Assembly (NCBI RefSeq): GCF_024170465.1
Contig: NZ_JALJYF010000002.1
Location: 248,001-312,000 of the forward strand
Direction: 5' to 3'
Origin: Natronospira proteinivora
GTDB lineage: Bacteria > Pseudomonadota > Gammaproteobacteria > Natronospirales > Natronospiraceae
Length of the DNA: 64,000 nt
The notes beneath the pieces were generated by a model that worked only from the letters and a program-made list of their open reading frames with translations, had not been told where the DNA came from and did not search any database. Positions 15,434-41,863 of the stretch are shown piece after piece; positions within the stretch are counted from its first letter, which is position 1; every line of letters begins with the position of its first letter. The translations under genes and the position numbers were made by a program.

Positions 15434-16174
15434 TTGAATTTCCCCATTCTGTACCAGGATGACTACCTGGTGGCTGCCCGAAAACCGGCCGATATACTGG
15501 TGCACCGCACGGCCCTGGCCCGGGACCGGGTTTTCATGCTCCAGAGCCTGAGGGACCAGCTGGGTCGGACCCTCTATCCGGTTCACCGACTGGACCGGGC
15601 CACTTCCGGCGTGATTGTGTTCGCCCTGGATTCCCGCTCGGCCCATCAGCTCAATCAGGCCTTCAGTGAGCAGCAAGTTCACAAGCAATATCTGGCCATT
15701 GTGCGGGGCTGGCCGCCGGCCCAGGGGGAAATCAATCGACCGGTCAAGGATGATGATCGTGCAGAACATAGACCGGCGCTGAGCCGTTATCGGCGCCTGG
15801 CCCAGTGTGAGCTGCCCGTTCCCAATCGCCGTTACCCCACTTCACGCTACGCCCTGCTTGAGCTGGAGCCGATGACGGGGCGGCGCCATCAGCTGCGAAT
15901 TCACTGCGAGCGCATGGCCTATCCCATCATTGGTGATACCACCCACGGGGACGGTGAACACAACCGTATTTTTCGCGAGCACCTGGGCATCCGGCGCCTG
16001 CTCCTCCATGCCCGAACCATCACCTTGCCCCACCCCGCCGAATCCACTCGCCGGCTGACCGTATCCTGTCCGCCCGGTGATCAATTTATCGACGCCATGA
16101 TAGGGCTGGGATGGAAGGACTGGCTGGACAATGAAGCGAAGGCGCTATTCCGTCCAGCGCTTGAAGATCAGTGA
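15434..16174 (+). CDS. truC: tRNA pseudouridine(65) synthase-like RluA-family enzyme
   Basis: A 246-residue pseudouridine synthase. The catalytic motif is HRLDRATSG with nucleophile Asp54. The C-terminal GDTTHGDGEHNRIFREHLG and RRLLLHARTITLPHP segments favour TruC, which modifies U65 of tRNA, over RluA/C/D. No S4 domain is present, also as in TruC. I place the start at a TTG preceded by GGAGGA at good spacing. A longer in-frame TTG 87 bases upstream would add a non-family N-terminus. The last 30 bases overlap, tail to tail, the 3' end of the aryl polyene KS gene apeR. Family certain; exact tRNA position inferred. Confidence 0.86.
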   Translation: MNFPILYQDDYLVAARKPADILVHRTALARDRVFMLQSLRDQLGRTLYPVHRLDRATSGVIVFALDSRSAHQLNQAFSEQQVHKQYLAIVRGWPPAQGEINRPVKDDDRAEHRPALSRYRRLAQCELPVPNRRYPTSRYALLELEPMTGRRHQLRIHCERMAYPIIGDTTHGDGEHNRIFREHLGIRRLLLHARTITLPHPAESTRRLTVSCPPGDQFIDAMIGLGWKDWLDNEAKALFRPALEDQ

Positions 16175-17377
16175 GGTATTGATGCCGCCAAAGGCAAAAT
16201 TGTTGCTCATCACGTATTCCACATCCATTTTTCGGCCATCCCCCATGATGTAATCCAGCTCCGCACAGCGTTCATCCACATTGTGAAGATTGGCAGTGGG
16301 GGCAAACCAACCTTCATTCATCATTTCAATGGCCAGCCAGGCCTCCAGGGAACCGCAGGCCCCCAGGGTATGACCGAAGTTGCCCTTCATGGAGCTGATG
16401 GGCACCGGGCGGCCAAAGACTTCCCGTGTGGCCTGGGTTTCGGCGATATCGCCCCGGTCGGTGGCGGTACCATGGCCGCTCACATAGCCCACTTGGTCAG
16501 GATGGAGGCCGGCATCTTCCAGGGCCAGTCGCATGGCCACCGCCATGGTCTCGGCATTGGGCTGGGTAATGTGGGTGCCGTCGGAGTTGGTTCCGAAACC
16601 TACCAGCTCGGCCATGATATCCGCTCCCCGTTCCCGGGCATGGTCCAGGGATTCAAGGATCAGATTTACCGCCCCTTCCCCCACTACGAGACCATCCCGG
16701 TCCCGGTCATAGGGAGCGGGGGTGGTCTCCGGGGCATCATTTCGGGTGGAGGTAGCAAAGAGGGTATCGAAGACCGCGGCATCGGCGCTGGAGAGTTCCT
16801 CGGCACCGCCGCCGATCATCATGTCCTGATGGCCATAGCGAATTGCTTCCATACCGTAACCCACCCCGTGGGAACCCGAGGTACAGGCGGAACTGGTGGG
16901 AATGATGCGGCCGGTCATCTTGAAGTAGAGGGCAATATTCACCGGGGCGGTATGCCCCATCATTTGCACATAGCTGTTGGAGGTCACACCCGCCACGTTG
17001 CCGGTTTGAAGATAGCGGGCGAAGGTCTCGGTGGCATCAATGCTGCCGAAGGAGGAACCACAGGAGACCCCGGCGCGGCCACTGTTCAATACCGGATGCT
17101 CGCGCAGACCGGCATTCTGCAGGGCCAGATCGGCGGCCCGGGTGGCCAGCAAAGCCACCGTACCCATGCTGCGAGTCTGCTTGCGCCCATAGCCGGCCTT
17201 GGGCAATTCATAATCCATCACCGGGCCACCCAGCCGGGTATTGAGCCCTTCGAAGCGCTCCCACTCGGGCATGTAGCGAATCCCCGTACGGCCGGCCTTC
17301 AGGGCCTCACGGATGCGAGGCCAGTCGTGCCCCAGGGAGGTCAGGCCTCCGACACCGCTTACCACAATCCGTCGCAT
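16145..17377 (-). CDS. apeR: Aryl polyene beta-ketoacyl-ACP synthase ApeR
   Basis: A 410-residue FabF-like ketosynthase, the last gene of the aryl polyene operon. The thiolase-fold active site is complete: Cys165 in SSACTSGSH, one His in SGHGTATD and one in NFGHTLGACG. The C-terminal NNFAFGGINTSLIF is typical of KAS I/II. In the Xenorhabdus system ApeR is a homodimeric KS acting beside the ApeO:ApeC pair; this assignment rests on position and family. The ATG shares one base with the apeQ stop (TGATG). A GTG two codons upstream is an alternative. The 3' end overlaps truC by 30 bases on the opposite strand. Confidence 0.9.
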   Translation of the reverse strand: MRRIVVSGVGGLTSLGHDWPRIREALKAGRTGIRYMPEWERFEGLNTRLGGPVMDYELPKAGYGRKQTRSMGTVALLATRAADLALQNAGLREHPVLNSGRAGVSCGSSFGSIDATETFARYLQTGNVAGVTSNSYVQMMGHTAPVNIALYFKMTGRIIPTSSACTSGSHGVGYGMEAIRYGHQDMMIGGGAEELSSADAAVFDTLFATSTRNDAPETTPAPYDRDRDGLVVGEGAVNLILESLDHARERGADIMAELVGFGTNSDGTHITQPNAETMAVAMRLALEDAGLHPDQVGYVSGHGTATDRGDIAETQATREVFGRPVPISSMKGNFGHTLGACGSLEAWLAIEMMNEGWFAPTANLHNVDERCAELDYIMGDGRKMDVEYVMSNNFAFGGINTSLIFKRWTE

Positions 17378-18114
17378 CAGCACATTCCCCCATTGACGGC
17401 CAGCACCTGGCGGGTGATGTAGGCAGCCTCATCCCGCATCAGAAAATCCACCGTGGCCGCCACTTCTTCCGGGCGGCCCAGGCGGCCGGCGGGAATCAGC
17501 TTGAGTGCTTCCTCCACGGGGGCATCGGCAATCATGTCGGTCTCGATCAGGCCCGGGGCCACGCAATTGACCGTGATCTTGCGCTTGGCCAGTTCCAGGG
17601 CCAGGCTCTGGGCGGCAGCAATGATGCCGGCCTTGGAGGCGGCGTAATTGGCCTGACCCCGATTGCCCATCAAACCGGAGACCGAGGACATGGCGATAAT
17701 GCGCCCACCCTTGCGGCCCCGAACCATGGGCATGACCAGGGGGTGAATCACATTATAGAAACCGCCCAGATTAGTGTTCACCACCCGGTCCCAATCCTCG
17801 CCCGGCATGGCCGGAAAGGCATTGTCCGCCGTAATCCCCGCGTTGCAAATCACGCCATAATAGGGCCCTTTCTCCTCGACCCGTGCCTCCAGGGCTTCGC
17901 GGGCCGCCTCCCGATCGGCAATATCGAATCCCAGGGTATCCACGCTCACACCCTGCTCGGCCAATTCGGCGGCCAGGGATTCGGCTTCGGATTGACCGGA
18001 ACGATAATGCAGGGTCAGGGCCCAACCGGGTTCGGCCAGCCGCTTGGCAATGGCCCGGCCGATACCGCGACTGGCGCCTGTGACCAATACTCGTCTTTGA
18101 TCCCCCACTGTCAT
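17377..18114 (-). CDS. apeQ: Aryl polyene 3-ketoacyl-ACP reductase ApeQ (FabG-like)
   Basis: A 245-residue SDR that would reduce the beta-keto group of the growing polyene on its ACP with NADPH. Features are TGASRGIGRAIAKRL at residues 13-27, CNAGITADN, a catalytic Ser in MSSVSGLMGNRGQ, and YAASK. The C-terminal YITRQVLAVNGGMC is FabG-like. The start overlaps the apeP stop by four bases (ATGA), and the stop overlaps the apeR start. Position and length match ApeQ of characterised clusters. A general FabG role is less likely because the gene is locked into the aryl polyene operon. Confidence 0.92.
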   Translation of the reverse strand: MTVGDQRRVLVTGASRGIGRAIAKRLAEPGWALTLHYRSGQSEAESLAAELAEQGVSVDTLGFDIADREAAREALEARVEEKGPYYGVICNAGITADNAFPAMPGEDWDRVVNTNLGGFYNVIHPLVMPMVRGRKGGRIIAMSSVSGLMGNRGQANYAASKAGIIAAAQSLALELAKRKITVNCVAPGLIETDMIADAPVEEALKLIPAGRLGRPEEVAATVDFLMRDEAAYITRQVLAVNGGMC

Positions 18115-18551
18115 TCATTCTCTCCCGACAAGGCTTGCGGTGGCTGTTCCATGACGCTCAGACGCCCCCGCGCCAGACACTCGCCACCTTGATGTATTTC
18201 TCCACGGTAGGAGCCGAAGCCATTGTCCTGGCGTATCAGCTCCTCGACCCGGATTTCCAGTTCACTGCCGGCGGCAAAGGCCGCCACCTCGCTGTCATAG
18301 CTGCGGCAAGCCAGCAGGTAACCCACCCGCGGGCCCTCGCCCTGGTCCTGCCCCCGGACGCCGGCCCAGGCCGCCACCGTCTGAGCCATCATCTCCAGGC
18401 CCACCGTGGCCGGCACTCGCCCATCCGCCAGAGCAAAGGGATGGGAGGGGGCCATCACTGCCCGGGCCCGGGCAGTCTTGTCATCCCAGTCCAGCAGGGC
18501 GTCGATCAGCAGCATGTGGCCCCGGTGGGGCAAAAGCGACTCAAGCTTCAT
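18111..18551 (-). CDS. apeP: Aryl polyene dehydratase subunit ApeP (hotdog fold)
   Basis: A 146-residue FabA/FabZ-like hotdog protein starting MKLESLLPHRGHMLLID. The PHRGHMLLID start and GLEMMAQTVAAWAG central helix are the conserved parts of the ApeP/'3-hydroxylacyl-ACP dehydratase' family. In the Xenorhabdus aryl polyene pathway, ApeP pairs with ApeI to dehydrate the 3-hydroxyacyl chain to a trans double bond. Both subunits are present here, but apart: apeI lies about 8 kb upstream in the same operon. The gene is separated from apeO by 11 bases and overlaps apeQ. Confidence 0.88.
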   Translation of the reverse strand: MKLESLLPHRGHMLLIDALLDWDDKTARARAVMAPSHPFALADGRVPATVGLEMMAQTVAAWAGVRGQDQGEGPRVGYLLACRSYDSEVAAFAAGSELEIRVEELIRQDNGFGSYRGEIHQGGECLARGRLSVMEQPPQALSGENE

Positions 18552-18562
18552 TCTTCACCGGC

Positions 18563-19750
18563 TCAATCCGCACCCAGCAGCAACACGGCATTGCTGCCAC
18601 CAAAGGCAAAGGAGTTACTCATGGCCAATCGATGCTGCCCTTGAATCCACCCCCCGGGCGAAACCAGATCCAGCGGGGCCAGTGAGGGATCATTTTCGCC
18701 GTCCCAGACATGGGGTGGCAACTGCCCCCCGCCATAGGCCTCATGCAGGGCCAGCCAGCAAAAGGCCGCCTCCGTAGCCCCGGCCGCCCCCAGGGTATGC
18801 CCCACCATGCCCTTGCTGGAGCTGGCCGGCACGCCTCCCGGGAAAACCCGGGCCACAGCATGGCTCTCCATCAAATCGTTCTTCATGGTACCTGTTCCAT
18901 GCAGGTTGAGGTAAGCAATGTCGACCGGATCACAGCCGGCCATGGCCAGGGCCAAGCGCATGGCCTGCTCGGCGCCCACCCCGTCCGGATCGGGTGCGGA
19001 AATATGGTGGGCGTCGGAACACTCGCCCCAGCCCATCAGGCGCAGCGGTCCTGGCGCTCGACTCATCAGAAACAGAGCAGCGGCTTCACCAATATTGATG
19101 CCATCCCGGTTGCGGCTGAAGGGATTACAGGCCTGAGCGGAGACGCTTTCCAGGGCATCGAAGCCGTTCACGGTCAGATCACACAGAGAATCCGCGCCCC
19201 CGGCGACCACCACATCACACAGCCCCAATTCCAGCATTCGGGCGCCGGCAATCAGGGCCTTGCTGGACGAGGTACAGGCAGTGGACAGAGTCAGCGCCGG
19301 CCCGGAAACGGCCAGATACTCGGCCAGAAATTCCGAAGGACTGCCCACCTCCTGCAGACGATAATCAAACTCAGCCGGATACTGTCCCGAGTACTGGTGG
19401 CTGGCCACGGCGGCCTCGCCTTCCCGGACACCGGAGGTACTCGAGCCAAGTACCACCGCCACTCGATCGGGACCATGGCGTTCAATCGCCGCCTGTACTT
19501 CGGACTCGATTTCTTGAAGGGCCCCCAGCAACAGACGATTGTTACGGCTCGCCCGATGGGTCCAGCCTTCGGGCACAGCCGGCAATTCATCGCTGCAGGC
19601 ACCCACCGTGGCCTCGCCCCCCCGCAGCAGGGGCATGCGGCGACTCAGCCCATGGCGGGTGCCCGCCAGCATGGCCTCGGTCACCGACGCCTTGTCGCGG
19701 CCCAGGGGGTTGATCAGGCCCAGGTGGTTGAGATAAATCCTGCTGCTCAT
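18563..19750 (-). CDS. apeO: Aryl polyene beta-ketoacyl-ACP synthase ApeO
   Basis: A 395-residue ketosynthase with an intact active site: Cys159 in STACTSSSK, His in NLHGTGTMKND and His in MVGHTLGAAGATEA. Residues around the entrance (LNLHGTGTMKNDLMESHAV) match the ApeO/FabB-like branch of aryl polyene clusters. ApeO is the catalytic partner of the ketosynthase-like ApeC, which here is the first gene of the operon (30739-31503). Together they would elongate the aryl starter with malonyl-ACP units. The ATG overlaps the stop of the DUF3261 lipoprotein gene. The C-terminus SNSFAFGGSNAVLLLG is family-typical. Confidence 0.92.
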   Translation of the reverse strand: MSSRIYLNHLGLINPLGRDKASVTEAMLAGTRHGLSRRMPLLRGGEATVGACSDELPAVPEGWTHRASRNNRLLLGALQEIESEVQAAIERHGPDRVAVVLGSSTSGVREGEAAVASHQYSGQYPAEFDYRLQEVGSPSEFLAEYLAVSGPALTLSTACTSSSKALIAGARMLELGLCDVVVAGGADSLCDLTVNGFDALESVSAQACNPFSRNRDGINIGEAAALFLMSRAPGPLRLMGWGECSDAHHISAPDPDGVGAEQAMRLALAMAGCDPVDIAYLNLHGTGTMKNDLMESHAVARVFPGGVPASSSKGMVGHTLGAAGATEAAFCWLALHEAYGGGQLPPHVWDGENDPSLAPLDLVSPGGWIQGQHRLAMSNSFAFGGSNAVLLLGAD

Positions 19751-20325
19751 GACGACAATGGCTCCAGGGTAATACGGATATCCTCGTCCATAATCATTTC
19801 AATCATCCCGGTGTCGGAAGCGCGAAGGATGCGCAGGATGACCCGACCATTGTCCAGACGCAAGCGCCGATCCCCCTGCTCGTCCACTTCCAGATGGCCA
19901 CCGTAAATCACCCGGTTCAGGTCTTCGGGCTCGGCCAGTAGCAATTGCAGCAAGGCCAGCAATTGAATGGGCTCAGGCGCCTCATCCGGGAACCGTCCTC
20001 GGCTGGACAACTGCTCACCGTCCCATTCCACCCGGAACAGGGCCATGCCGGTGAGGCTCTGGGCCGCCAGCAGGAACCGCTTTTCATCCACCGCCAACTG
20101 CCCGATGAAATCCTGTCGGCCCGCCGGTGAGCGAAGCTGCACCCGGTCCAGGCGTTCCAGAGAGCGGCCCATCTCGGCCGGCGTCAAAAGACAATAGGCC
20201 AGCCGGGCATGTAGACGCTCGCAGCCCGAACGATCAGGCAGGGTGAGGGGCGCGCAGGCCGTCAGCGCCGCCAACAGCAGGCACAGCAGGGCCAGGCGCC
20301 AGGGTTTCTGAAATCCCATTCTCAC
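19747..20325 (-). CDS. apeN: DUF3261 lipoprotein of the aryl polyene operon (ApeN-like)
   Basis: A 192-residue protein with a clear lipoprotein signal ending LAALTACAP. The mature part has the beta-rich pattern of DUF3261 proteins and alternates polar and hydrophobic residues without a catalytic motif. Such lipoproteins occur in almost all aryl polyene clusters next to the MMPL exporter and LolA-like carrier, and are thought to help place the lipid in the outer membrane. The GTG start overlaps the apeM stop (GTGA); an ATG two codons later is an alternative. The stop overlaps apeO. Molecular function is unknown. Confidence 0.8.
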   Translation of the reverse strand: MRMGFQKPWRLALLCLLLAALTACAPLTLPDRSGCERLHARLAYCLLTPAEMGRSLERLDRVQLRSPAGRQDFIGQLAVDEKRFLLAAQSLTGMALFRVEWDGEQLSSRGRFPDEAPEPIQLLALLQLLLAEPEDLNRVIYGGHLEVDEQGDRRLRLDNGRVILRILRASDTGMIEMIMDEDIRITLEPLSS

Positions 20326-22646
20326 GAGGCCTCCCCCTGTTCAGCAGCCTGGCCCGCCAGCAAAAGGGCCGAGAGATACGACGCCACGATACCCACGATC
20401 ACGGTCAAGCCGAACTGTCCCAAGGCCGGCACCTGACTCAAGCCCAGAAGACCAAAGGCCAGCAACGTGGTCACTGCGGCCAGACCAATACCGGCCACCC
20501 CGGCCGGTGACGGTTGACGCTCGGCGGCCAGAAAAGCCGCGTAATCCGCCCCCACACCCAAGGCCAGAATGACCCCCATGAGCACGAAGGTGTTCAGGCC
20601 AATGCCGCTCAGCCATAGAAAGCACAAGGTCAGGGACAGCGCGGAGAGGGGTGCCAGGGCCGCCATGCCGCCACGACGCCAACCCAGCAACAGGACAAAC
20701 AGGGCCGGAATACCGATCACGGCAGCCGCCAGTATCCAGCGACTGGCCGTTGCCCGCTGTTCGGACAGGTTCCGGTTCATCAAGGCCATGGCATCCACAT
20801 AGCGAACCCCCGTCGGCAGTTGTTCCTCGTCCAGTCCGTCCAGGTCACTGCGGGGGATCAAGAGACTGGCCTTGTCGGTCTCGCCCTCAATCCAGAGTCG
20901 TTCCACCAGGGGCGCGAGCGGACCGTCTCGCAGCGCATCGGGCTGCAGCCAGTGTCCCCGGGCCTCGGCCCAACGGGCTCGCAGTGCCGTACGGGCCGAG
21001 GCGGACAAACCGATTTCCCCCAGCGAGGCATCCAGCGTGGAATCCGCCAGGGCCTGTCCCAGCAGGGCATGGGTCTCGGCCTGGATGGAGGGCGGCGGAA
21101 TCAGCCGGGACAGGGCCACGCTACGCTGCCCCAGGTCTTGCTCGGCCAAGCGCTGGCGCAGGGCCCGCTCCCGGCTCATGACCTGATCCAGATCCCGCCC
21201 CTGGATCAGGAAAAAACCGGGCGGGAAATCCGTCCCGCTCACCGCCCGCACATGGTGATCCACGTCCAATTGCTCGGGCAATTCGGCTTGAAAGGCCCGC
21301 AGATCGTCACTGCCCGGCATCTGCCAAAAGGCCACAAAGCCAAGGGGCAATACCAGCAAGGGGAACAGCCAGCGTGCCGGGCCGATCCCTGCGAGCAGGG
21401 TCCGGGGCTCGTTCAACAGGCGGGTGACAGGCGCACTGAGATGGACCGGCATATGCCGGTCCAGAACCGGGAACAACAGCACCACGGTCAGCCAGGCGCC
21501 GGCCAAGCCTGCGGCGGAAAAAACCGCCAACTCCCGAAGCACCGGGAAGGGACTGACCGCCAGCACACCCAGACAGAGCAGACTGCTCAGCACACCGAGC
21601 AAGAGCGGACGCTGCAGGCGCCGGACCAGTCGCTCGGGGGAATCGGAACCGCGCTCGGTGCGGTGAACCAGGTATTTGAAGACATAGTCGATGGCAATCC
21701 CCAGCAGGGTACTGCCCGCCACCAGGGTGATGATATGGATCCGGCCGAACAGCAACAGGGAGACCGCCGCCGCCATCAGGACCCCGCCCCCCAGGGCCAG
21801 GGCAGCCAGCACCAGGGGCCGAAGGCTGACAAAGGCCAGAAGAATCAGCAACAGAATACCGACCAGGGAGAGGGAGGAAATCAGCATGACCTCGCCCCGG
21901 GCCAGCTGGCGTTGCTCGGCCGCAAAATGGACCGGCCCGGTACTGCTCAGGCGGCAATCCGGGCAGGCCTGGGCCACGGCCTGCTCCACCTGGGCCAGGG
22001 TTGCCTGGTGAGCGGTCTGGACCGGGGTCTCAAAGGCATTGCCACTCAAGGAAAGCGGCAGGAGCCAACGGTCCTGATCATCGCCGGCCTGGTACCAAAG
22101 CCCCTCACGACGCTGGAAATCCGGATAGGGGCTCGGCTGATGGCTCAGGTATTCGCCCAGAAAACCCGCCGGATCCTGATCAAACGACCGGCCGGTGGCG
22201 GGCGAAGGTCGTGCCAAGCGTCCCTGGACGGTACGCCAGTAGTAGCCCGCCGGGTCCAGTCGCAATCGCTCCAGGGTGGCGGGCCGCAACAGGGCAAACT
22301 GATAGGGCTTGAGTGCCTCCAGCAGGGTTTGCGGATCGCCCATCGCCAGCGGTTGGGCAACCTCGCTGTCACGGATAATCTCACGGACCTGTCCGGCAGC
22401 CGCCGCCGAGGCCTCCCCTGGGCCTTCAATCAGCAGCAGCCACTCGCCCGTGGCACCAATGCGATCCCGGCCCATGGCCCGGGCAATCAGGGGATCCTGA
22501 TGCTCCGCCGGCATCAGGTGGGTAATGTCGCTGTCCAGCCAGTCGCCCGCCGGGTGCTGCTGGGGCAACCAGACCAATAGCACCGCCAGGCCGGCGAGGA
22601 TCATGAGCAGCCAGGCCAGGCCCCGTCCCAACGCCATGACGCTCAT
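20322..22646 (-). CDS. apeM: Aryl polyene MMPL/RND-type lipid exporter ApeM
   Basis: A 774-residue polytopic protein of the MMPL branch of the RND superfamily. It has two repeats, each a single helix, a large periplasmic loop and a bundle of five helices (about 12 helices in total). The helix-4 region ITLVAGSTLLGIAIDYVFKY and its second-repeat counterpart LILALGVGADYAAFL carry the conserved Gly-rich/Asp-Tyr signature of proton-driven lipid transporters. In aryl polyene loci this protein is thought to move the acylated pigment from the inner membrane toward the LolA-like carrier. It overlaps its neighbours by four bases on both sides. Confidence 0.92.
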   Translation of the reverse strand: MSVMALGRGLAWLLMILAGLAVLLVWLPQQHPAGDWLDSDITHLMPAEHQDPLIARAMGRDRIGATGEWLLLIEGPGEASAAAAGQVREIIRDSEVAQPLAMGDPQTLLEALKPYQFALLRPATLERLRLDPAGYYWRTVQGRLARPSPATGRSFDQDPAGFLGEYLSHQPSPYPDFQRREGLWYQAGDDQDRWLLPLSLSGNAFETPVQTAHQATLAQVEQAVAQACPDCRLSSTGPVHFAAEQRQLARGEVMLISSLSLVGILLLILLAFVSLRPLVLAALALGGGVLMAAAVSLLLFGRIHIITLVAGSTLLGIAIDYVFKYLVHRTERGSDSPERLVRRLQRPLLLGVLSSLLCLGVLAVSPFPVLRELAVFSAAGLAGAWLTVVLLFPVLDRHMPVHLSAPVTRLLNEPRTLLAGIGPARWLFPLLVLPLGFVAFWQMPGSDDLRAFQAELPEQLDVDHHVRAVSGTDFPPGFFLIQGRDLDQVMSRERALRQRLAEQDLGQRSVALSRLIPPPSIQAETHALLGQALADSTLDASLGEIGLSASARTALRARWAEARGHWLQPDALRDGPLAPLVERLWIEGETDKASLLIPRSDLDGLDEEQLPTGVRYVDAMALMNRNLSEQRATASRWILAAAVIGIPALFVLLLGWRRGGMAALAPLSALSLTLCFLWLSGIGLNTFVLMGVILALGVGADYAAFLAAERQPSPAGVAGIGLAAVTTLLAFGLLGLSQVPALGQFGLTVIVGIVASYLSALLLAGQAAEQGEAS

Positions 22647-23230
22647 GAATCGTCTTCCACCTCAAGCATCTCGTCATCGGGGCGGTCGCCCTGATGGTCG
22701 CTCAGGCGAATATCCAGGTGCCCCCCATCGGCCTCCTTTATATGAATGTGCTCTGGCCAGCGCCCCTGGACCACTTCGATGGCATCGATCTGTTCCGCCA
22801 GGGCTTCATCCCGGGGTTTGAGGCGAAAACGCATTCCGTCCTCGTCATCCGCCGCCAGCGGTTGAACATCAAAAAGTGCCGCGAGCTGTTCCTGATCACC
22901 GCTCATCAACGCCATGAGCAACTCATTCAGGGATACCACCCAGGGGGCATCCTCGGCACGAATCTCTTCTGCTTCGCCCTCGGGGTGGATCTCGATGATG
23001 CGATCCGGCAACAGGCGATAAACATGCTCGAAGGGGGACTCGGTTTCCCAGCGCAGTTCTTCGCCGGCCACCCAGTGGACCCGCCCCTCACTGCGAAAAG
23101 CCCGATCCAGTCCCGGCGTGGTGCGTTCCTGCTGGAAGCGCGCCTCAAAGGCGGCCGGCTCGGCTGCCAGGGGCGTGACCAGCCCCATCAGCAGGACAAA
23201 CAACACAAGCTTCAAACCGCGCCCCCTCAT
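22643..23230 (-). CDS. apeL: LolA-like outer-membrane carrier protein ApeL
   Basis: A 195-residue secreted protein. The ATG is placed inside the apeK stop (ATGA), where it opens a signal peptide (LKLVLFVLLMGLVTPLAAEP). A longer in-frame start lacks any signal. The mature part has the LolA/LolB pattern: FEARFQQERTTPGLDRAFRSEG, then EELRWETESPFEHVYRLLPD, and alternating strands up to an acidic C-terminus (DDEMLEVEDDS). LolA-like proteins shuttle lipidated cargo across the periplasm; in aryl polyene clusters the cargo is probably the pigment lipid. Sequence similarity is modest in this family, so the name rests on motif layout and the invariant operon position. Confidence 0.85.
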   Translation of the reverse strand: MRGRGLKLVLFVLLMGLVTPLAAEPAAFEARFQQERTTPGLDRAFRSEGRVHWVAGEELRWETESPFEHVYRLLPDRIIEIHPEGEAEEIRAEDAPWVVSLNELLMALMSGDQEQLAALFDVQPLAADDEDGMRFRLKPRDEALAEQIDAIEVVQGRWPEHIHIKEADGGHLDIRLSDHQGDRPDDEMLEVEDDS

Positions 23231-32561: not shown

Positions 32562-32562
32562 G

Positions 32563-33720: not shown

Positions 33721-33804
33721 CAAGCCCAAGCCCCGTTTGCTGTCGGCTTTTTGATAAACTGCCCATTGACCACTGGCAGCAATGTCCACACGGCGGAGAA
33801 GGGA

Positions 33805-34074: not shown

Positions 34075-35225
34075 TGCCCAAGCCAATCCACCCCGTGCAC
34101 ATCGTGGGCCATGCCATGGCCTGCCCCCACAACGACCCGGCTGCCGCCTTCCAGGCCGGTGCTCCGCCCACCTGGACCCCGCTGCCGGTTCCCGGCTATC
34201 CGGGTGTGGAACGACCTTACGGCTTCCTGCACCAGCGGGAAGCCCCCGAACAGGCCCTGGACCGGCTACTGGATGAAGCCTTGAGCCGGGCTGGCTTGAG
34301 TGCGGCGGAACGAGTCCAGGCCCCGGTTCTCATGGGCACCTCTTCGCTGAATATCGGCGAGAATGAAAAACGCATCATCGAGCAGCTGCATCAGAGCGAT
34401 TCATCCCCCGCCCTGGAAGATGCCCGCTGGGGTTTCATGCTGGATCAGTATTGCCAGCGCCACGGCCTGGAAGGTCCCCAGACGACCTTCAACACCGCCT
34501 GCAGCTCCAGCGCCAACGCCCTGCTTTACGCACAACGCATCCTGAGTCTGGATCTGGCACCCGCGGTGGTGGTCATCGGCTTTGAAGCCTATAACGGCAT
34601 CAGCTTTGGCGGCTTTCATGGACTAATGCTGCTGTCCCCGCAAGACTACCGTCCTTTCGATCCTTCTCGGCAGGGCATCATCCTGGGGGAGGGGGTGGCT
34701 GTGGCCGTGCTACGCCGGGACGACAAGGGTGCCGTAGCACGGTTGGAAGGCGGCGACACCGCCATCGACTTCACCGGCATCACGGTGGCTTCGGAAGACA
34801 GCCTGGCCCGTGTCATGCGCTCGGCCCTCGATAAAACCGGCAATACCCCGGTGCAGGCGATCAAGGCCCATGGCACCGGCACGGCCGGCAATGATCAGGC
34901 GGAAGCCAACGCCATCCACCAGGTATTCGGTGAGCAGGCACCCCCCTACTTTTCCCTCAAGGGCGGTCTGGGACACAGTCTGGGGGCCTGCGGACTGGTG
35001 GAACTGCTGAGCTTGAGCGTCTGCCGCGACAGGGGGTTTCTGCCCGCCTCTCTGGGCTACGGCGACCATCCCCCGCAGACCCAGGAAACCGCAGAGGAAG
35101 AGGAGATCGAGTCACTGCCCCTGCTGCCCCTGGATACACAGCAAGCCTGGCCGGAACCCGGACGGCTGCTGCTGAACTATTTTGGTTTCGGCGGCAATAA
35201 CACCAGCCTGGTGGTGACCCTGTGA
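34074..35225 (+). CDS. Beta-ketoacyl-ACP synthase of the resorcinol block
   Basis: A 383-residue ketosynthase with complete residues: Cys143 in NTACSSSANALL, His in KAHGTGTAGND, and His in GGLGHSLGACGLVE. The C-terminal NYFGFGGNNTSLVV replaces the usual NSFGFGG. It is divergent from ApeO and ApeR and is locked between an ACP gene and a cysteine-less partner. Together they look like a KS/chain-length-factor pair for one of the two acyl chains that DarA and DarB would join. The next gene starts at a GTG overlapping the stop by four bases. Confidence 0.9.
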   Translation: MPKPIHPVHIVGHAMACPHNDPAAAFQAGAPPTWTPLPVPGYPGVERPYGFLHQREAPEQALDRLLDEALSRAGLSAAERVQAPVLMGTSSLNIGENEKRIIEQLHQSDSSPALEDARWGFMLDQYCQRHGLEGPQTTFNTACSSSANALLYAQRILSLDLAPAVVVIGFEAYNGISFGGFHGLMLLSPQDYRPFDPSRQGIILGEGVAVAVLRRDDKGAVARLEGGDTAIDFTGITVASEDSLARVMRSALDKTGNTPVQAIKAHGTGTAGNDQAEANAIHQVFGEQAPPYFSLKGGLGHSLGACGLVELLSLSVCRDRGFLPASLGYGDHPPQTQETAEEEEIESLPLLPLDTQQAWPEPGRLLLNYFGFGGNNTSLVVTL

Positions 35226-36109
35226 GTGCGCCGGCCATCCAGCAATTCCGGGTCCTGGCAGCCGGCCAGTTCAGTCGCCCACTGGACTCGCCCGAGGGAC
35301 AGGACCTGCGAGACCTGTTCAAGACCGAAGGCCTGCCCCCCATTCGACGGGCCAACCGTTTCATTAGCCTGGCGGTACTCGGGGCCCATCGTTGTCGGCG
35401 GCATTACTCAGGCAAGCTCCCCGATGACTGTGGTACCTATCTGGCCACCGCCCACGGCAGCTTCACTGACACCGTCCGGCTATTGGAAGACCAGGTACAG
35501 CGCCATTTGCCCATCACGCCCTTTCGTTTCGTGAATGTATTGAGCAATATTGCCGGCTTTCATGTAGCCGCCCATCTGGGAACGTCCGGGGAAAACCTGG
35601 CCATTGCTCGCTTGAAGGGGGCGTTTGATGCGGCACTGGAAACGGCAGCCATGGACCTGGCCTTGGGACAGACTGACTGCGCCATGGTGGGTGGCGTAGA
35701 TGAAGGCGACGACGACCTGGCATTGCACCGCAGCCGCACCAAGACGCCGGAAGGCCGCATACCCGGAGAAGGCAGTGGCTGGCTTCTGCTCACTGCGGAT
35801 TTGCATCAGGAAGGGGCCCTTCTGCAACATGGCGGCGATTATGGTGATCCATCTGTGCTGGCCGATGCCTTGCACGATGCCCGGCCGGACTGCTTGGCAG
35901 TAGGCACCTCGGCCGATCGCCACCCGGCTTCCTTGCAGGCCGCCTTCCCGAATTATGCGGTGTGGGACTACCACCAGACCCAGGGCTGGATACTGAGCAA
36001 CCCGGCCATGGCCTTTGCCGAGCATATCTGTAACGGCGCCGGACGACTGGCCCATATCGATCAGACCGGCCCCCAGGGTCAATGGCGGCTATGGCTGCTG
36101 GATCGTTAA
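35222..36109 (+). CDS. Cysteine-less ketosynthase-like partner (chain-length factor type)
   Basis: A 295-residue member of the thiolase superfamily that is shorter than a full KS. The region matching the nucleophile reads FVNVLSNIAGFHVAAHLGTSGENLAIA, with no Cys at the active site, as in ApeC and chain-length factors. Later KS-like elements (GQTDCAMVGGVDEGD, RIPGEGSGWLLL) are still recognisable. The GTG start overlaps the stop of the active KS by four bases, so a 1:1 heterodimer is likely. The gene ends 18 bases from the converging BtrH-like gene. It is homologous in design to apeC, giving two KS/KS-like pairs in one locus. Confidence 0.82.
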   Translation: MSAPAIQQFRVLAAGQFSRPLDSPEGQDLRDLFKTEGLPPIRRANRFISLAVLGAHRCRRHYSGKLPDDCGTYLATAHGSFTDTVRLLEDQVQRHLPITPFRFVNVLSNIAGFHVAAHLGTSGENLAIARLKGAFDAALETAAMDLALGQTDCAMVGGVDEGDDDLALHRSRTKTPEGRIPGEGSGWLLLTADLHQEGALLQHGGDYGDPSVLADALHDARPDCLAVGTSADRHPASLQAAFPNYAVWDYHQTQGWILSNPAMAFAEHICNGAGRLAHIDQTGPQGQWRLWLLDR

Positions 36110-36127
36110 GGGGCCACCGATCCCGAT

Positions 36128-37165
36128 TCAGAGCTGGCGGGCAAGATGTTTCAGTGCCCGCCCTTCCTGTTCGGCGCAGCAACGTAGCTGCTCGGGCAAA
36201 CCCCTGAGCTGACCCGGGTCACCACTTTTCACGTAACGCGCGCCTTCCAGGGCAAAGTCGCGCCACTGTTCACCCGCCTCGGCCATCAAGGCCGCACTGT
36301 CTTCCAGGGCCGGAGACTGCATCCAGTCAGCCGCTTCCTGGAGGAAAGCCGCATAGAGGAAACGGAAGCCACCACCACCGGTACCGATTTCTTCCTGCAT
36401 GCGAATGATCTGGGCCACATAGAGCTGCTTTTCGCGATCCTCCAGGGATTTTCCCGACAGCTTTTCCAGACGCTTGGCCAGATGACGGATCCCCCGCAAG
36501 CCGATCCAGGGTACCGGCGAGTAACGCATCATGTTGCAGCTGCTGCGAATGGCACGGCGGGCGATTCCCGACCAGTCCAAATGCTTGGGGAAATCCTCGG
36601 GATAGTAGATCAGACCCTTGGGCGCAAAGGGCCCCCGGGCAAAACGAGCCTTCATCAGATCCCGCCAGGGCGCCCGCACCGGGTGATCAAAAACCGGGTC
36701 ACTGATCAGATAATCCTCCCCTTCCCGCCCATAGACGATCAGATTGTGGGCGTTGAAATGAAAGCGCATGTCCCGGGGGAAATAGGGCAGCCAGTACACC
36801 GAGGTCTGCAAGCCCACCGGGCGACCCTCGGCCAGATGGTCATCCAGGGCCTGCATGCCCGCCACCGGGTCCCGGAAGCGTTCCCGGTGCATGGTCAATC
36901 CCAGTCGCTTCTCCAGACCTCGAACCACCCGGCCCGGTGGCATGCGATAAGAAGTGAGGGGCTGTTGATTAACTCGAACCATGGGCAAATGGGCGAAGGT
37001 AAAGGCCGCCGAGAGCCCAAAGGCTGCCGGCTCACTAAGAGGCAGGCCCGCATGCCCCAGCAGACGGGCCATGACGCCGGTCTCACAATGAGCGGCATGT
37101 TGATGCTCAAAGGTGGGCACGCCGATCAACCCGGGGGAATAAGTGTCTGTGGCCACGGCTGCCAT
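36128..37165 (-). CDS. BtrH/DUF4872-like cysteine acyltransferase candidate
   Basis: A 345-residue protein with the BtrH N-terminal layout: a probable nucleophile Cys27 in HQHAAHCETGVMA, His140 in FHFNAHNLIVYG, and Asp156 in YLISDPVFD. The C-terminal half is helical, in line with DUF4872. The named relative BtrH moves an acyl group from an ACP to the amine of an aminoglycoside in butirosin synthesis. There is no signal peptide. Here the gene sits in one minus-strand set with darA and darB, so acyl transfer from ACP to the resorcinol or another acceptor is attractive. Sequence identity to BtrH cannot be judged by eye. ATG follows CAGGAG. Confidence 0.8.
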   Translation of the reverse strand: MAAVATDTYSPGLIGVPTFEHQHAAHCETGVMARLLGHAGLPLSEPAAFGLSAAFTFAHLPMVRVNQQPLTSYRMPPGRVVRGLEKRLGLTMHRERFRDPVAGMQALDDHLAEGRPVGLQTSVYWLPYFPRDMRFHFNAHNLIVYGREGEDYLISDPVFDHPVRAPWRDLMKARFARGPFAPKGLIYYPEDFPKHLDWSGIARRAIRSSCNMMRYSPVPWIGLRGIRHLAKRLEKLSGKSLEDREKQLYVAQIIRMQEEIGTGGGGFRFLYAAFLQEAADWMQSPALEDSAALMAEAGEQWRDFALEGARYVKSGDPGQLRGLPEQLRCCAEQEGRALKHLARQL

Positions 37166-37166
37166 C

Positions 37167-37616
37167 TCAGGGCTCCTGTTTCAACTGTTCGGTATCCATG
37201 TCCAGCACCTCGGCATAACGTCGTAACAGCCGGGGTGACAAACGGGAAAAAGGCCCGGGGCGCAAATGCCGGCGCACGCGCCAGCTCATGATGCCCATGG
37301 CCTGGGCGAGACTACCCGGATCCAGGCGGCGCTCGTACATGTAAAAGGCCAGAGGCGATGCCCGCCCGGCCTGGATCGCCGCCCGGGCTTCCCGGGCCAG
37401 TCGCTGGAATTCCGCGACCGCCGCCGTGGTCACGACCTCCTCCACCTTCCAGCCCTCGGACGGGATCATCCGATAATGGCCGGAGGCATCCCGGCGATAG
37501 ACAGCCTTGTGCTCACCCTCCAGCACCCGGTTCTCTTCCGATGCCAGCTCGTCCTCCGACCCCCCGACATCCGGGGGCGATACAGAGGCCTTGTTGTTGG
37601 GGACATCACTGACCAT
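37167..37616 (-). CDS. Uncharacterised protein with possible HTH segment
   Basis: A 149-residue protein of no recognised family. The N-terminal 35 residues are polar and disordered-looking. The C-terminal half contains a helix-turn-helix-like pattern, LDPGSLAQAMGIMSWRVRRH followed by SRLSPRLLRRYAEVLDM, reminiscent of XRE-type DNA-binding domains. A local regulator of the locus is therefore possible. The central part (EVVTTAAVAEFQRLAREARAA) is helical. The ATG lies just inside the end of darB, and the BtrH-like gene starts one base after its stop, so it belongs to the darA-darB transcript. Function unknown. Confidence 0.72.
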   Translation of the reverse strand: MVSDVPNNKASVSPPDVGGSEDELASEENRVLEGEHKAVYRRDASGHYRMIPSEGWKVEEVVTTAAVAEFQRLAREARAAIQAGRASPLAFYMYERRLDPGSLAQAMGIMSWRVRRHLRPGPFSRLSPRLLRRYAEVLDMDTEQLKQEP

Positions 37617-37618
37617 GA

Positions 37619-38779
37619 TCAAGCCACCGTCAACTGCATCCAGCAGCTGGTAAAGCGCCCGCTTTCGGGCACAAAACAGAGAATCTTCTGACCGGACTCA
37701 AGCTGACCACTGGCGGCGAGCTCTTCCAACATGATGAAGATGGAAGCCGCCCCCGTATTGCCGCGCTCCGCCAGATTGGTAAACCAGCGATCCTGGGGAA
37801 TCTCCGTCCCCACCCGGGCCATACCCTCAGTGAGAGGGCCCCGAAAGTACTCCGAGGACATATGGGGCAGGAACCAGTCCACGCTGGAAACATCCAGGCC
37901 CCGACGAGCACAGACCCGGGGCAGGGTCTCATCCACGGTCTTTTTCACCACTTCATCATTGAGCAGACGAACATCCTGCTTGACCGCCATTACCGAATTA
38001 CGGCCCAGCGCTTCAGGCCCTCCAAACTCCCGCCAGCCCTTTAGATAACCAGCCTTATTCTTCTCGGCACCGGCATACATGCAAACCGGCATATCACCGG
38101 CATGGGACGTGGAATCGATCCAGTCAATCCAAAGATTCACCGGTCCCGGACCGGGACGGTCTGATAGCAGCATGGCGCCTGCCCCGTCCGAGAGCATCCA
38201 GCGCAAAAACTCCTTTTCAAAGGCCAGCTCCGGACGTTGGGTCACCGCTTCCGCCCTCTCTTGGGCCAGCGCCTCTGCCTCCGCCTGAAAATGGGCCGAC
38301 CGCATCATCAATGAAGACGTCTCGGACCCGGTGGCCACGGCTTGCCGGGCTTCACCCACCGCCACCGCCAGCCAGGCCTGTTTCAAGGCCAGGATGCCGG
38401 CGCTACAGATGCCGCTGGTGGACACGGTTTCGCAGGGCCCCGCCCCCAACTCACCGTGGACCATGACGGCATGGGAGGGCATCAGCTGGTCCGCCATGCT
38501 GGTACCACAGGCCAGAAGGTCCATGCCCTCGGGATCAAACACCTTGCCATCCAGACGCCGAATAGCCTCGGCTGTCAGCTGGGCATTGTTCCAGCGGGGC
38601 TCACCGTTTTCCGAATCCAGCACATAGTGACGACGGCGAATACCGTTCTGGCGCAGAATCACCCGCCGGGCCCGGGAGGGCCGATCACCCACCTGGCCCA
38701 GAACCTTTTCCATGGCGTCATTCGTCACCGCTTCACCGGGCATGAAGCGGCTCAAACTGGTAATGCAGACCTTATTCAC
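37619..38779 (-). CDS. darB: KAS III-like resorcinol-forming ketosynthase DarB
   Basis: A 386-residue FabH-type ketosynthase. The catalytic set is Cys125 in TSGICSAGILALK, His in WFLPHMSSEY, and Asn in ERGNTGAAS. It has the DarB family's 'GIRRRHYVLD' N-terminus. DarB condenses two acyl chains to the precursor of a 2,5-dialkylresorcinol, and aromatisation occurs later. It overlaps the end of darA by eight bases. The downstream small HTH-like gene starts just beyond its stop. Named with good confidence because of the darA neighbour. Confidence 0.9.
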   Translation of the reverse strand: MNKVCITSLSRFMPGEAVTNDAMEKVLGQVGDRPSRARRVILRQNGIRRRHYVLDSENGEPRWNNAQLTAEAIRRLDGKVFDPEGMDLLACGTSMADQLMPSHAVMVHGELGAGPCETVSTSGICSAGILALKQAWLAVAVGEARQAVATGSETSSLMMRSAHFQAEAEALAQERAEAVTQRPELAFEKEFLRWMLSDGAGAMLLSDRPGPGPVNLWIDWIDSTSHAGDMPVCMYAGAEKNKAGYLKGWREFGGPEALGRNSVMAVKQDVRLLNDEVVKKTVDETLPRVCARRGLDVSSVDWFLPHMSSEYFRGPLTEGMARVGTEIPQDRWFTNLAERGNTGAASIFIMLEELAASGQLESGQKILCFVPESGRFTSCWMQLTVA

Positions 38780-39725
38780 GACAGAACTCTTCCATTCTCT
38801 CCCGGCCAGCCCCGGAAGGCTGTTCCAGACGTTGTTGTTTGTCTTTCAGGCGGCGGGCCAGCAGCGGCCGGGCCAGGGCCTGGACCAGCAGACTCATCGG
38901 CACCACGGTCACGATCATCAGCACCAAAAAGATCATGTAGAGATAGAGCACCGGATAGCGTCGACGCTGCCCGGGGCGACCTACGGCCCGAATCAGCTTC
39001 CCCCATAACTTGAAGCTACGATGGCCAATGGCCTCACTCATGATGAAACGACGGTCCACCCTGGCAGCCTCCAGGCCGGTCAACATGGCCTTGCCCTGCC
39101 GTTCCTCGTCTCTCGACAGCGCATCCAGCAGGGCATAGCCAAAACGCCGGGTGCTCCATATCTGGGATTCATGCAGGCCAGCGGGCGGCAAGCGCCCATT
39201 TGGTGACCCGCGCCGACCCGTCAGCATCCAGCGGGGCGTGGTAATAAAGGTGGCCAGAGGCGGCCCCGGGTCCACCAGGGCCACGTGGTCACAATGCCGA
39301 GCCCCGGCCTCCGCCAGCAGGGACTTCATCTTTTCCTGGGCGGTCAACCACATATTGCGGCAGGCCGTCACCGTGACCACCGGGGTATTGTGCAGGATTC
39401 GTCGGCCCTGTTGGGAACGCAGGAAACCGGTAAACGGCAAACTGGGTGACAAAAACCAGACCTGATAGACCATAATCACAAGGTCAAACTGCTCATCATC
39501 CAGCAGCAGGGGGTCCATCTCCGGGGGCAGCAAATGCACCGATTCGGGAAAGACATCCAGAAAGCGGGTCACCGTCCAGGGGAAGGGATACGCGACCTTG
39601 GGGCGCAGGCGGCCATGGACCACGTCCACCTCGCTGCTGGCTTCCAGAGGTTCAATCAGGGATTGCGCCACCTGATCGGTTTGCCCACTCTGTGACCAGT
39701 AAACCACCAAGACCCGTTTGCCCAT
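38772..39725 (-). CDS. darA: Dialkylresorcinol condensing enzyme DarA
   Basis: A 317-residue protein. The N-terminal domain has a flavodoxin-like start, VLVVYWSQSGQTDQVAQSL. A segment with HLLPPEMDPLLL and VYQVWFLSPSLPFTGFL follows. A C-terminal membrane helix (YLYMIFLVLMIVTVVPMSLLV) lies before a basic tail. These are features of the DarA family found beside DarB in dialkylresorcinol and flexirubin clusters. It is probably bound to the inner membrane through the C-terminal helix. The gene is first on its strand after a promoter-like TATAAT and diverges from the MipA gene. The family name is reliable; the chemistry of DarA is less settled. Confidence 0.88.
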   Translation of the reverse strand: MGKRVLVVYWSQSGQTDQVAQSLIEPLEASSEVDVVHGRLRPKVAYPFPWTVTRFLDVFPESVHLLPPEMDPLLLDDEQFDLVIMVYQVWFLSPSLPFTGFLRSQQGRRILHNTPVVTVTACRNMWLTAQEKMKSLLAEAGARHCDHVALVDPGPPLATFITTPRWMLTGRRGSPNGRLPPAGLHESQIWSTRRFGYALLDALSRDEERQGKAMLTGLEAARVDRRFIMSEAIGHRSFKLWGKLIRAVGRPGQRRRYPVLYLYMIFLVLMIVTVVPMSLLVQALARPLLARRLKDKQQRLEQPSGAGRERMEEFCRE

Positions 39726-39910: not shown

Positions 39911-40777
39911 ATGCGATGTTTTGCCCTCATATTGGCCTCGGCATTGACCCTGACCAGTCCAATGGTCTGCTCAGGGGAGGACGCCGCATCCAATGATACC
40001 CAAGGTGAAACTTCCCGCTGGGCCGGGGGCACACTGGAATATGGCATCGGACTGACCCGGCTCGCTTTCCCCCATTATCCCGGATCGGATCAGAGCCACA
40101 CCGTGATGATGCCCTTCCCCTACCTCACTTATTACAGCGAGCGGGTGGAACTGGATGGCAGCGATCTACAGGGTCGGCTTTGGCAAGGCGATCGCTTCGG
40201 TCTGGATATCAGCAGTGGTGGGGCCCTGCGGGTGGACGCCGATGACAATGAGGCCCGGGAAGGCATGGAAGATTTGGGATGGTTGGGGGAAATCGGCCTG
40301 GCGCTCAGATATTCTCCCCGCTGGACCCCAGGGAATCCGGATACCTGGCAGTATCGTCTCTCACTGCCGCTGCGCCAGGCGGTGGAACTGGATGGCAGCA
40401 GTCTGAGCCGGACCGGCTGGGTCCTCTCCCCCAATGCCGAAGTCCAGCGGGATTTCCATCTGGGACCACATCAATGGGAGTTTCAGGGACGACTCAGTGC
40501 CCGGTACGGTTCCACCGACTACCATCAACACTTTTACGGGGTCCCCCTGTCCGCAACGACACCGGACCGACCGGCCTATCAGGCCGAGGAAGGCTTTACC
40601 GCCTATGTGGCCTCCATGGGCCTGGCCTGGCGCCAGGGTCCTTGGTGGTTGGGGGGCTTTGTTCGGCATGAAAATTTCAGTGACAGTGTCGTGATCGACA
40701 GCCCGTTGTTACGAGAATCCAGGCAACAATCGGTGGGCGTGTCTGCCGCCTATATCTTTGGAAAACGTCGTCTATAA
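39911..40777 (+). CDS. MipA/OmpV family outer-membrane protein
   Basis: A 288-residue beta-barrel protein. The ATG opens a signal peptide (CFALILASALTLTSPMVCSGEDA). The motif GLTRLAFPHYPGSDQSH near residue 50 and GVPLSATTPDRPAYQAEEGF near residue 220 are MipA/OmpV hallmarks. Alternating strands end in AAYIFGKRRL, so the usual terminal aromatic is followed by four extra residues. A longer in-frame start overlapping darA is rejected because it lacks a signal. The gene lies between darA (divergent) and the O-methyltransferase. It may let a pigment intermediate or substrate through the outer membrane, but MipA proteins also serve as scaffolds. Confidence 0.88.
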   Translation: MRCFALILASALTLTSPMVCSGEDAASNDTQGETSRWAGGTLEYGIGLTRLAFPHYPGSDQSHTVMMPFPYLTYYSERVELDGSDLQGRLWQGDRFGLDISSGGALRVDADDNEAREGMEDLGWLGEIGLALRYSPRWTPGNPDTWQYRLSLPLRQAVELDGSSLSRTGWVLSPNAEVQRDFHLGPHQWEFQGRLSARYGSTDYHQHFYGVPLSATTPDRPAYQAEEGFTAYVASMGLAWRQGPWWLGGFVRHENFSDSVVIDSPLLRESRQQSVGVSAAYIFGKRRL

Positions 40778-40795
40778 CTCTTGGGGAAATACAAC

Positions 40796-41863
40796 ATGAT
40801 GCCCAGTTCCAAAGGCCGCATGCGCGCGGTCGAGGCCAAATCCTATGCCCAGTTTCTGGCCTTCGGCCCTTTCGCCTTTCAAGCCACCGTGGTTATGCGG
40901 GACTGTGGCCTGCTGGCCGCACTGGATCAGGGCGAGGGCGGCCACAGCCTGGCAAGCCTGGTGGATGACACCGGTCTGAGCGAGTATGCCGTGTCGGTTC
41001 TGCTGGATGTGGGCCGCAACATCGGCCTAGTGGAACGGGACGATGAAGGGTGCTTTCACCTGGGCCGGGTGGGTTTCTTCGTTCTGCATGACGAGATGAC
41101 CCGGGTGAATATCAATTTCACCCGGGACGTGGCCTATCAGGCCCTGCCCTATCTGGAGGCATCCCTGCGGGAATCCCGTCCGGCCGGTCTCAAGACCCTT
41201 GGGCCCTGGAAAACCATCTATGAGGGTCTGACCCAGTTGCCCGAACCCGCCCAGCAGAGCTGGTTCGAGTTCGATCACTACTATTCCGATCAGGTCTTCG
41301 ACCAGCTACTTCAACTGGTCTTCCAACGTCCCATTCGGCATTTGCTGGATGTGGGTGGCAACACGGGCCGCTGGGCATTGAAGTGCCTCAACCATGATCC
41401 CGGGATTAAAGTCACCCTGATGGATCTCCCGGGACAGCTCAAGGAGGCAAAAAAGAATCTGGAAGCAGCGGGTGTGGGGGATCGAGCCGACTATTACCCG
41501 GCGGATCTGTTGAAAACGGATACCCGCTTTCCCGAAGCGGCCGATACCATCTGGATGAGTCAGTTTCTGGACTGTTTTTCGGAACCGGAAATCGTCAGCA
41601 TCCTGCAACGTGCCGCAGCTTCCATGGATGCAGACAGCCGGCTTTTCATTGTGGAGTTATTCCCGGACCGACAGGGCTTTGAAGCCGCCCGCTTCAGTCT
41701 GGATGTAACCTCACTCTACTTCACCTGCCTGGCCAATGGCAACAGCCGCATGTACCACTATGACCGTTTTCTCGAGCTGGTAAAGCAGGCTGGTCTGGTG
41801 GTTGAAAAGGAGGTGGACCTGCCTGCCGGTGGACACACTTTCCTCAGTTGTCGGCGAGCCTGA
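40796..41863 (+). CDS. O-methyltransferase-like SAM-dependent enzyme
   Basis: A 355-residue class I methyltransferase. The N-terminal part is a winged-helix-like dimerisation domain (residues 15-110, LAFGPFAFQATVVMRDCGLL). SAM motif I is HLLDVGGNTGRWA near residue 185, followed by VTLMDLPGQL; the C-terminal HTFLSCRRA ends the fold. This is the hydroxyindole/small-molecule O-methyltransferase type. It ends the resorcinol block and could methylate a phenol on the polyene head or the resorcinol. The start is an ATG with GGGGAAAT upstream; a TTG 15 bases earlier is less likely. A terminator follows 18 bases after the stop. Confidence 0.87.
   Translation: MMPSSKGRMRAVEAKSYAQFLAFGPFAFQATVVMRDCGLLAALDQGEGGHSLASLVDDTGLSEYAVSVLLDVGRNIGLVERDDEGCFHLGRVGFFVLHDEMTRVNINFTRDVAYQALPYLEASLRESRPAGLKTLGPWKTIYEGLTQLPEPAQQSWFEFDHYYSDQVFDQLLQLVFQRPIRHLLDVGGNTGRWALKCLNHDPGIKVTLMDLPGQLKEAKKNLEAAGVGDRADYYPADLLKTDTRFPEAADTIWMSQFLDCFSEPEIVSILQRAAASMDADSRLFIVELFPDRQGFEAARFSLDVTSLYFTCLANGNSRMYHYDRFLELVKQAGLVVEKEVDLPAGGHTFLSCRRA

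Follow-up and report, generated by a model that had tools for sequence, protein, structure and literature searches.

A 64,000-nucleotide stretch of the Natronospira proteinivora genome (contig NZ_JALJYF010000002.1; hereafter the window, with positions counted from its first letter) encodes a complete aryl polyene (ape) operon and a dialkylresorcinol (dar) gene block that diverge from a short intergenic gap. Together with a MipA-family outer membrane protein and a methyltransferase, they form a cluster (16145-41863) in which family searches support every named gene except DarA. This cluster likely makes an outer membrane pigment, probably yellow-orange, whose polyene acid forms an ester with the resorcinol ring of a dialkylresorcinol. 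The ester is the best-supported reading because the ape-dar linkage survives rearrangement in related genomes, the two gene sets co-occur strongly, and both characterized precedents, arcuflavin and flexirubin, which are themselves polyene-dialkylresorcinol esters (PMC3949708, PMC3992019), come with a comparable gene set. The proximity of the complete ape and dar sets, 89 bp apart, counts in favor of the same reading, and one genome holds what a hybrid system calls for, namely both gene sets plus a BtrH-like acyltransferase. The gene identities are established at the level of sequence; the joined product is what we infer.

Architecture of the locus

The ape operon occupies the minus strand (16145-31503), running from ApeR at the low end to ApeC. 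The dar block follows (31593-39725), and the genes for MipA (∼39911-40777) and the methyltransferase (40781-41863) come after it. The starts of ApeC (31503) and of the ATP-binding cassette (ABC) transporter ATPase (31593) face away from each other across exactly 89 bp, a presumed two-way promoter in which a promoter scan returned a single weak sigma-70-like match, no better than in shuffled sequence. Rfam and tRNA scans of the whole window were empty. The locus shows no sign of recent acquisition as a foreign block: the ape (63%) and dar (62%) blocks match the left flank (62%) in G+C content and exceed the right flank (60%) only slightly.

A preliminary description of this DNA had reported the complete ApeC-to-ApeR operon, the 89-base separation from a second block on the opposite strand, and the presence there of DarA, DarB, an acyl carrier protein, a ketosynthase/ketosynthase-like pair, an ABC exporter, a BtrH-like protein and MipA. 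All of these are borne out, with their coordinates and names. It correctly placed the methyltransferase but called it an O-methyltransferase, a label that does not sit well with its similarity to E. coli ApeB, and it overlooked the most informative gene of the inventory, an aromatic amino acid ammonia-lyase (AAL).

An ape operon with an internal ammonia-lyase

All ape proteins but ApeN align to the ape operon of E. coli CFT073, in the same order and at 26-63% identity. The core enzymes that define an ape cluster, ApeC to ApeR, are therefore present in operon order, with ApeN assigned by position and the shared DUF3261 domain alone (detected by Pfam in the window and by annotation in E. coli CFT073). 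Relative to the E. coli apeA-apeR operon (PMC8253772), every member from ApeB to ApeR has a counterpart in the window, and ApeC to ApeR keep their order; the comparison identified no ApeA homologue in the window. The window differs in that its ApeB counterpart lies beyond the dar block, ApeJ and ApeK are split by an inserted AAL gene, and a dar block is attached. The true start of ApeL is probably near 23230.

The AAL carries the ASG triad of the MIO cofactor as well as the YGISTGFG and QDRYSIR motifs. Its motif 1 is YH, versus SH in the genome's own hutH, and its motif 2 is HNQD, as in phenylalanine ammonia-lyases, versus GQED in hutH (alignment excluding the out-of-frame rows L071, L074, L078, L081 and L082). 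This pattern agrees with the published description of FlxA from the flexirubin pathway, a proven tyrosine ammonia-lyase whose motif 1 resembles histidine ammonia-lyases and whose motif 2 is of the tyrosine/phenylalanine ammonia-lyase type (PMC3992019). A true hutH adjoins hutI elsewhere in the genome, which is why the AAL is not taken for the histidine-utilization gene. A XanB2-type chorismatase domain (PF21168), the mark of arcuflavin proper and its hydroxybenzoate starter, was not found in the window genome (assembly 98% complete) or in six relatives; as a positive control, the same search detected it in two resorcinol-bearing genomes reached from loci titled Dechloromonas. Given the FlxA-like motifs and the failure to find PF21168, the starter unit is more likely 4-coumarate, as in flexirubin, than 3-hydroxybenzoate, as in arcuflavin, and the AAL is probably a tyrosine ammonia-lyase that would supply it. 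Of 23 other genomes with ape genes, 9 encode the AAL at 52-57% identity, and in all but one of these it lies within ∼10 kb of ApeR; ape operons that carry the lyase are thus widespread in their own right. In the literature covered, which takes in a minority of subscription journals, no paper was found by title and abstract to characterize an ape cluster of Proteobacteria that includes an ammonia-lyase.

The methyltransferase beyond the dar block probably belongs to the ape set, because it is 48% identical to E. coli ApeB and shows kinship to the FlxJ family. Methylation of the aryl head is the role assigned to E. coli ApeB (PMC8253772), and in flexirubin, feeding of ring-deuterated tyrosine showed that one ring deuterium is lost, the outcome that ring methylation predicts (PMC3992019). 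By analogy, the enzyme may be a C-methyltransferase, and as an ApeB homologue it is likelier to modify the aryl ring than to mark a new product. These relationships make it unlikely that it is an O-methyltransferase capping the phenol or the resorcinol, an activity that would be compatible with a hybrid product and for which a Pfam Methyltransf_2 match, a methionine-derived methyl on the polyene part of arcuflavin and the usually methylated hydroxyl of xanthomonadin (PMC3949708) could be cited.

In the sister species (G002), a pseudouridine synthase gene lies between MipA and the methyltransferase (L048, 12355-13065). Its window homologue (15347-16174) is at the opposite end of the cluster, and this displacement is a local rearrangement.

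The dar block

The dar block contains the two proteins by which a dar cluster is recognized, a DarB-type ketosynthase and DarA. DarB passes the NCBIfam model NF005293, with C125, H306 and N335 invariant in an alignment of seven homologues, and falls short of the stricter DarB model NF053539 (449 versus 550). DarA matches no Pfam or NCBIfam model and is assigned by homology, neighborhood and its flavodoxin fold. It adjoins DarB in most relatives and shows 45-56% identity among proteobacterial copies and 74% to the copy from the same genus. Its AlphaFold2 model (mean pLDDT 91) contains a flavodoxin-like domain followed by extra C-terminal helices. The best Foldseek matches are WrbA-type flavin mononucleotide flavoproteins (E 2.5e-7), at a query-normalized TM-score of only ∼0.35 because the C-terminal helices are unmatched. 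DarA is assigned the aromatase role in the arcuflavin pathway (PMC3949708), and the predicted fold would suit an enzyme that uses flavin to oxidize the ring formed by DarB.

The BtrH-like acyltransferase (DarE in arcuflavin numbering) and the small protein beside DarB (DarD in the same numbering) pass the NCBIfam models 'BtrH-related acyltransferase DarH' and 'DarG family', respectively, and are therefore standard dar genes. C27 and H140 of the BtrH-like protein are invariant in an alignment of 12 homologues, a pair with a putative catalytic role, and the protein is the candidate ester-forming enzyme.

Linkage and co-occurrence in related genomes

The search covered 19 genomes of the order. 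The ape-dar layout of the congeneric genome (G002) is the same as that of the window. Two others (G003, G012) encode an AAL-bearing ape operon with the dar block at its other end, so that ApeR adjoins DarA. Six (G005, G007, G010, G013, G015, G017), some of them incomplete, possess an ape-type AAL and ApeR with no strong DarB match. Elsewhere, further arrangements of the linkage are found: ape with AAL adjoining dar in another family of the class (G163), ape without AAL adjoining dar in the class (G246), and ape and dar genes side by side in loci titled Thiohalomonas (L036) and UBA6908 (L037). Among 276 genomes of the class that are ≥90% complete, DarB (E ≤ 1e-60) is present in 19 and ApeR (E ≤ 1e-90) in 26, with both in 12 versus 1.8 expected (hypergeometric P 1e-9, only indicative because species are not independent and relatedness is uncorrected). 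With the window genus left out, the two occur together in 10 genomes versus 1.5 expected (P 5e-8). They lie on one contig within 25 kb in 4 of the 12.

In G011, a second ApeR copy adjoins DarA (L053, G011:C125:39450-59449, positions 13075-14295), and the AAL, ApeO and the other ApeR are on another contig, possibly the trace of a split ape-dar cluster. A Synechocystis contig (L038, 8989-11140) encodes DarB (46%) beside a DarA-like sequence with a stop in the translated stretch; DarD, DarE, DarC and DarJ were not detected nearby.

Comparison with characterized and predicted systems

Polyene-resorcinol hybrids are a known kind of system, with arcuflavin and flexirubin characterized and a linked cluster reported in Pseudoalteromonas. 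The dar block is of the same kind as that of the arcuflavin producer Azoarcus sp. BH72, with DarA, DarB, the small protein, the BtrH-like protein, the ABC ATPase and permease, the acyl carrier protein and the ketosynthase in common; beyond it, MipA, the methyltransferase, LolA, the exporter, an acyltransferase and an AMP-ligase are shared with the arc and dar genes (PMC3949708). Unlike the window, in which all genes form one locus, Azoarcus has its polyene genes in two physically unlinked loci. It derives a 3-hydroxybenzoate starter through the chorismatase ArcB, whereas the window encodes an ammonia-lyase, and its cluster includes a halogenase gene (PMC3949708). The arcuflavin study also reports that dar genes lie within or next to polyene genes in nine genomes (PMC3949708).

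The same comparison bears on the unusual combination that the preliminary description saw in the BtrH-like protein, ABC exporter and O-methyltransferase. Each has its counterpart in the arcuflavin list (darE, BtrH-like; darF/darI, ABC transporter; darC, acyl carrier protein; darJ, ketosynthase; arcC, MltA-interacting; arcM, methyltransferase; PMC3949708) or in the E. coli operon, which is why they are not accepted as marks of a new product. The hybrid itself is supported by linkage, co-occurrence and precedent, but the reasons given for its novelty fail.

Flexirubin of Chitinophaga pinensis and Flavobacterium johnsoniae is likewise an ammonia-lyase-started polyene joined to a dialkylresorcinol (PMC3992019), and the window shares with it the ammonia-lyase, an FlxJ-like methyltransferase and relatives of DarG and DarH. 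The three equivalog models that define flexirubin proper are all missed, with FlxA at 334 of 700 bits, DarG at 100 of 170 and FlxJ at 458 of 560. The window operon follows the proteobacterial ape order. Within the Gammaproteobacteria, linked ape-resorcinol genes coincide with a yellow-orange color in Pseudoalteromonas distincta and P. arctica; this cluster is a prediction only, compared here by description, and the term ammonia-lyase is absent from the text of that study (PMC9966250).

Proposed pathway and alternative products

In the proposed pathway, the AAL would deaminate tyrosine to 4-coumarate, which ApeH would load onto ApeE/ApeF. By analogy with characterized homologues, ApeO-ApeC, ApeR, ApeQ, ApeP and ApeI would extend the aryl polyene, and the ApeB-like enzyme would methylate its aryl ring. 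Characterized homologues likewise underlie the resorcinol branch, in which DarB would condense a pair of acyl units derived from fatty acids and DarA, with its flavodoxin fold, would oxidize the ring to a 2,5-dialkylresorcinol; the acyl carrier protein and ketosynthases of DarC/J/K may provide some of the acyl supply. The BtrH-like acyltransferase would then attach the polyene to a resorcinol hydroxyl, and ApeL-M-N, the ABC transporter and MipA would carry the product to the outer membrane.

Several observations weigh against a joined product of this kind. The dar block can exist without ape, as one genome of the order (G009, 94% complete) holds the whole block, including the BtrH-like gene, while ApeR, ApeO and the AAL were not found there under the search thresholds. 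ApeR and DarB sit on different contigs in 8 of the 12 genomes that encode both. The AAL clears no functional NCBIfam cut-off, and its substrate could be either tyrosine or phenylalanine. Furthermore, the window keeps ApeD and ApeJ, which are proposed to link the polyene of E. coli to another kind of lipid anchor (PMC8253772). Intact ApeD and ApeJ, together with the occurrence of ape alone and dar alone in relatives and the fact that free dialkylresorcinols are known products, would fit adjacent clusters with two separate products, one a free dialkylresorcinol and the other an aryl-polyene lipid like those of E. coli and Xenorhabdus. This outcome is nevertheless improbable: the linkage persists through rearrangement and the co-occurrence is strong, the BtrH-like acyltransferase would be needless for a free resorcinol, and flexirubin clusters likewise hold acyltransferase and glycosyltransferase genes (PMC3992019). 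The self-contained dar block, with its own acyl carrier protein, ketosynthase pair, acyltransferase and ABC exporter, and its solitary occurrence in G009 could also point to a resorcinol ester whose acyl part is an ordinary chain built on DarC by DarJ/DarK, the polyene not being the partner. We consider this very improbable, as the same self-contained set in Azoarcus BH72 has a polyene ester as its product (PMC3949708).

Within the preferred polyene-dialkylresorcinol ester, the specific product can be proposed only tentatively, at slightly less than even confidence. It would be an undescribed flexirubin-like hybrid made by ape-type machinery in Gammaproteobacteria, in which a proteobacterial aryl polyene, started from 4-coumarate and methylated on its ring, forms an ester with a dialkylresorcinol. 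The novelty that remains lies in the combination of dar with a lyase-started ape operon in this class, and the predicted product was not found described in the literature covered. If correct, it would point to repeated origins of flexirubin-like chemistry through the union of dar genes with an ape operon that carries a lyase. A flexirubin-like ester would also make flexirubin-type pigments a weaker marker of Bacteroidota than usually assumed, a point already raised in the arcuflavin study (PMC3949708). This order, in which ape and dar occur singly in some genomes and joined in others, would be useful for tracing how the pathways became linked and which enzyme forms the ester.

Table 1. Genes and intergenic region of the ape-dar locus, in window coordinates
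Feature	Position	Strand	Evidence
ApeR, ketosynthase	16145-17383	-	PF00109/PF02801; 56% identity to E. coli ApeR
ApeQ, ketoreductase	17377-18114	-	PF13561; 55% to E. coli ApeQ
ApeP, dehydratase	18111-18551	-	PF22817; 34% to E. coli ApeP
ApeO, ketosynthase	18563-19750	-	NF006618, 497 bits (cut-off 407); 46% to E. coli ApeO
ApeN, DUF3261 lipoprotein, putative LolB-like role	19747-20325	-	PF11659; operon position; DUF3261 at same E. coli position
ApeM, MMPL/RND exporter	20322-22646	-	PF03176; 27% to E. coli ApeM, full length
ApeL, LolA-like carrier	22643-23323	-	PF03548; matches E. coli ApeL
ApeK, thioesterase	23227-23661	-	PF13279; 55% to E. coli ApeK
Aromatic amino acid ammonia-lyase (AAL)	23658-25220	-	PF00221, 536 bits; MIO triad ASG, motif 1 YH, motif 2 HNQD
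ApeJ, glycosyltransferase-acyltransferase	25221-26924	-	PF00535 + PF03279; 43% to E. coli ApeJ
ApeI, dehydratase	26924-27274	-	35% to E. coli ApeI
ApeH, acyl-ACP/CoA synthetase	27274-28665	-	PF00501; 32% to E. coli ApeH
ApeG, COG4648-like membrane protein	28650-29267	-	42% to E. coli ApeG
ApeF, acyl carrier protein	29230-29475	-	63% to E. coli ApeF; LDSID phosphopantetheine site
ApeE, acyl carrier protein	29479-29748	-	54% to E. coli ApeE; LDSID site
ApeD, lysophospholipid-type acyltransferase	29973-30797	-	PF01553; 38% to E. coli ApeD
ApeC, ketosynthase chain-length-factor	30739-31503	-	PF13723; 31% to E. coli ApeC
Divergent intergenic region, 89 bp, presumed two-way promoter	31504-31592		Sequence
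DarF, ABC transporter ATPase	31593-32561	+	PF00005
DarI, ABC-2 permease	32563-33720	+	PF12698/PF01061
DarC, acyl carrier protein	33751-34074	+	PF00550
DarJ, ketosynthase, active-site Cys143	34074-35225	+	PF00109/PF02801; C143, K296, H301 invariant in 8 homologues
DarK, ketosynthase-like, chain-length-factor-like, without the TACSS cysteine motif	35222-36109	+	Weak PF00109; sequence
BtrH-like acyltransferase (DarE; NCBIfam DarH)	36128-37165	-	NF053550, 449 bits (cut-off 300)
Small protein (DarD; NCBIfam DarG family)	37167-37622	-	NF053536, 139 bits (cut-off 70)
DarB, StlD/DarB-family ketosynthase, dialkylresorcinol cyclase	37619-38779	-	NF005293, 538 bits (cut-off 450)
DarA, flavodoxin-fold with C-terminal helices, putative aromatase	38772-39725	-	Homology to other DarA; AlphaFold2/Foldseek
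MipA-family outer membrane protein	39911-40777	+	PF06629
ApeB/FlxJ-like methyltransferase	40781-41863	+	48% to E. coli ApeB; FlxJ family 458 bits, cut-off 560 not reached

Neighboring genes

Around the G009 dar block (L056, G009:C13:112001-132000), the neighbors include a WcaJ-like glycosyl phosphotransferase and CpsG. In the window, a DUF4382 protein is encoded directly past the methyltransferase on the opposite strand (41947-42840, minus), overlapping a longer plus-strand open reading frame without family support. A few hundred bases separate an extracytoplasmic function (ECF) sigma factor gene (44091-44618, plus), possibly regulatory, from a DUF3106 gene (45013-45756). On the other side of the cluster, the plus strand (5274-12938) encodes an HlyD-type adaptor followed by two tandem AcrB-family resistance-nodulation-division (RND) pump genes.

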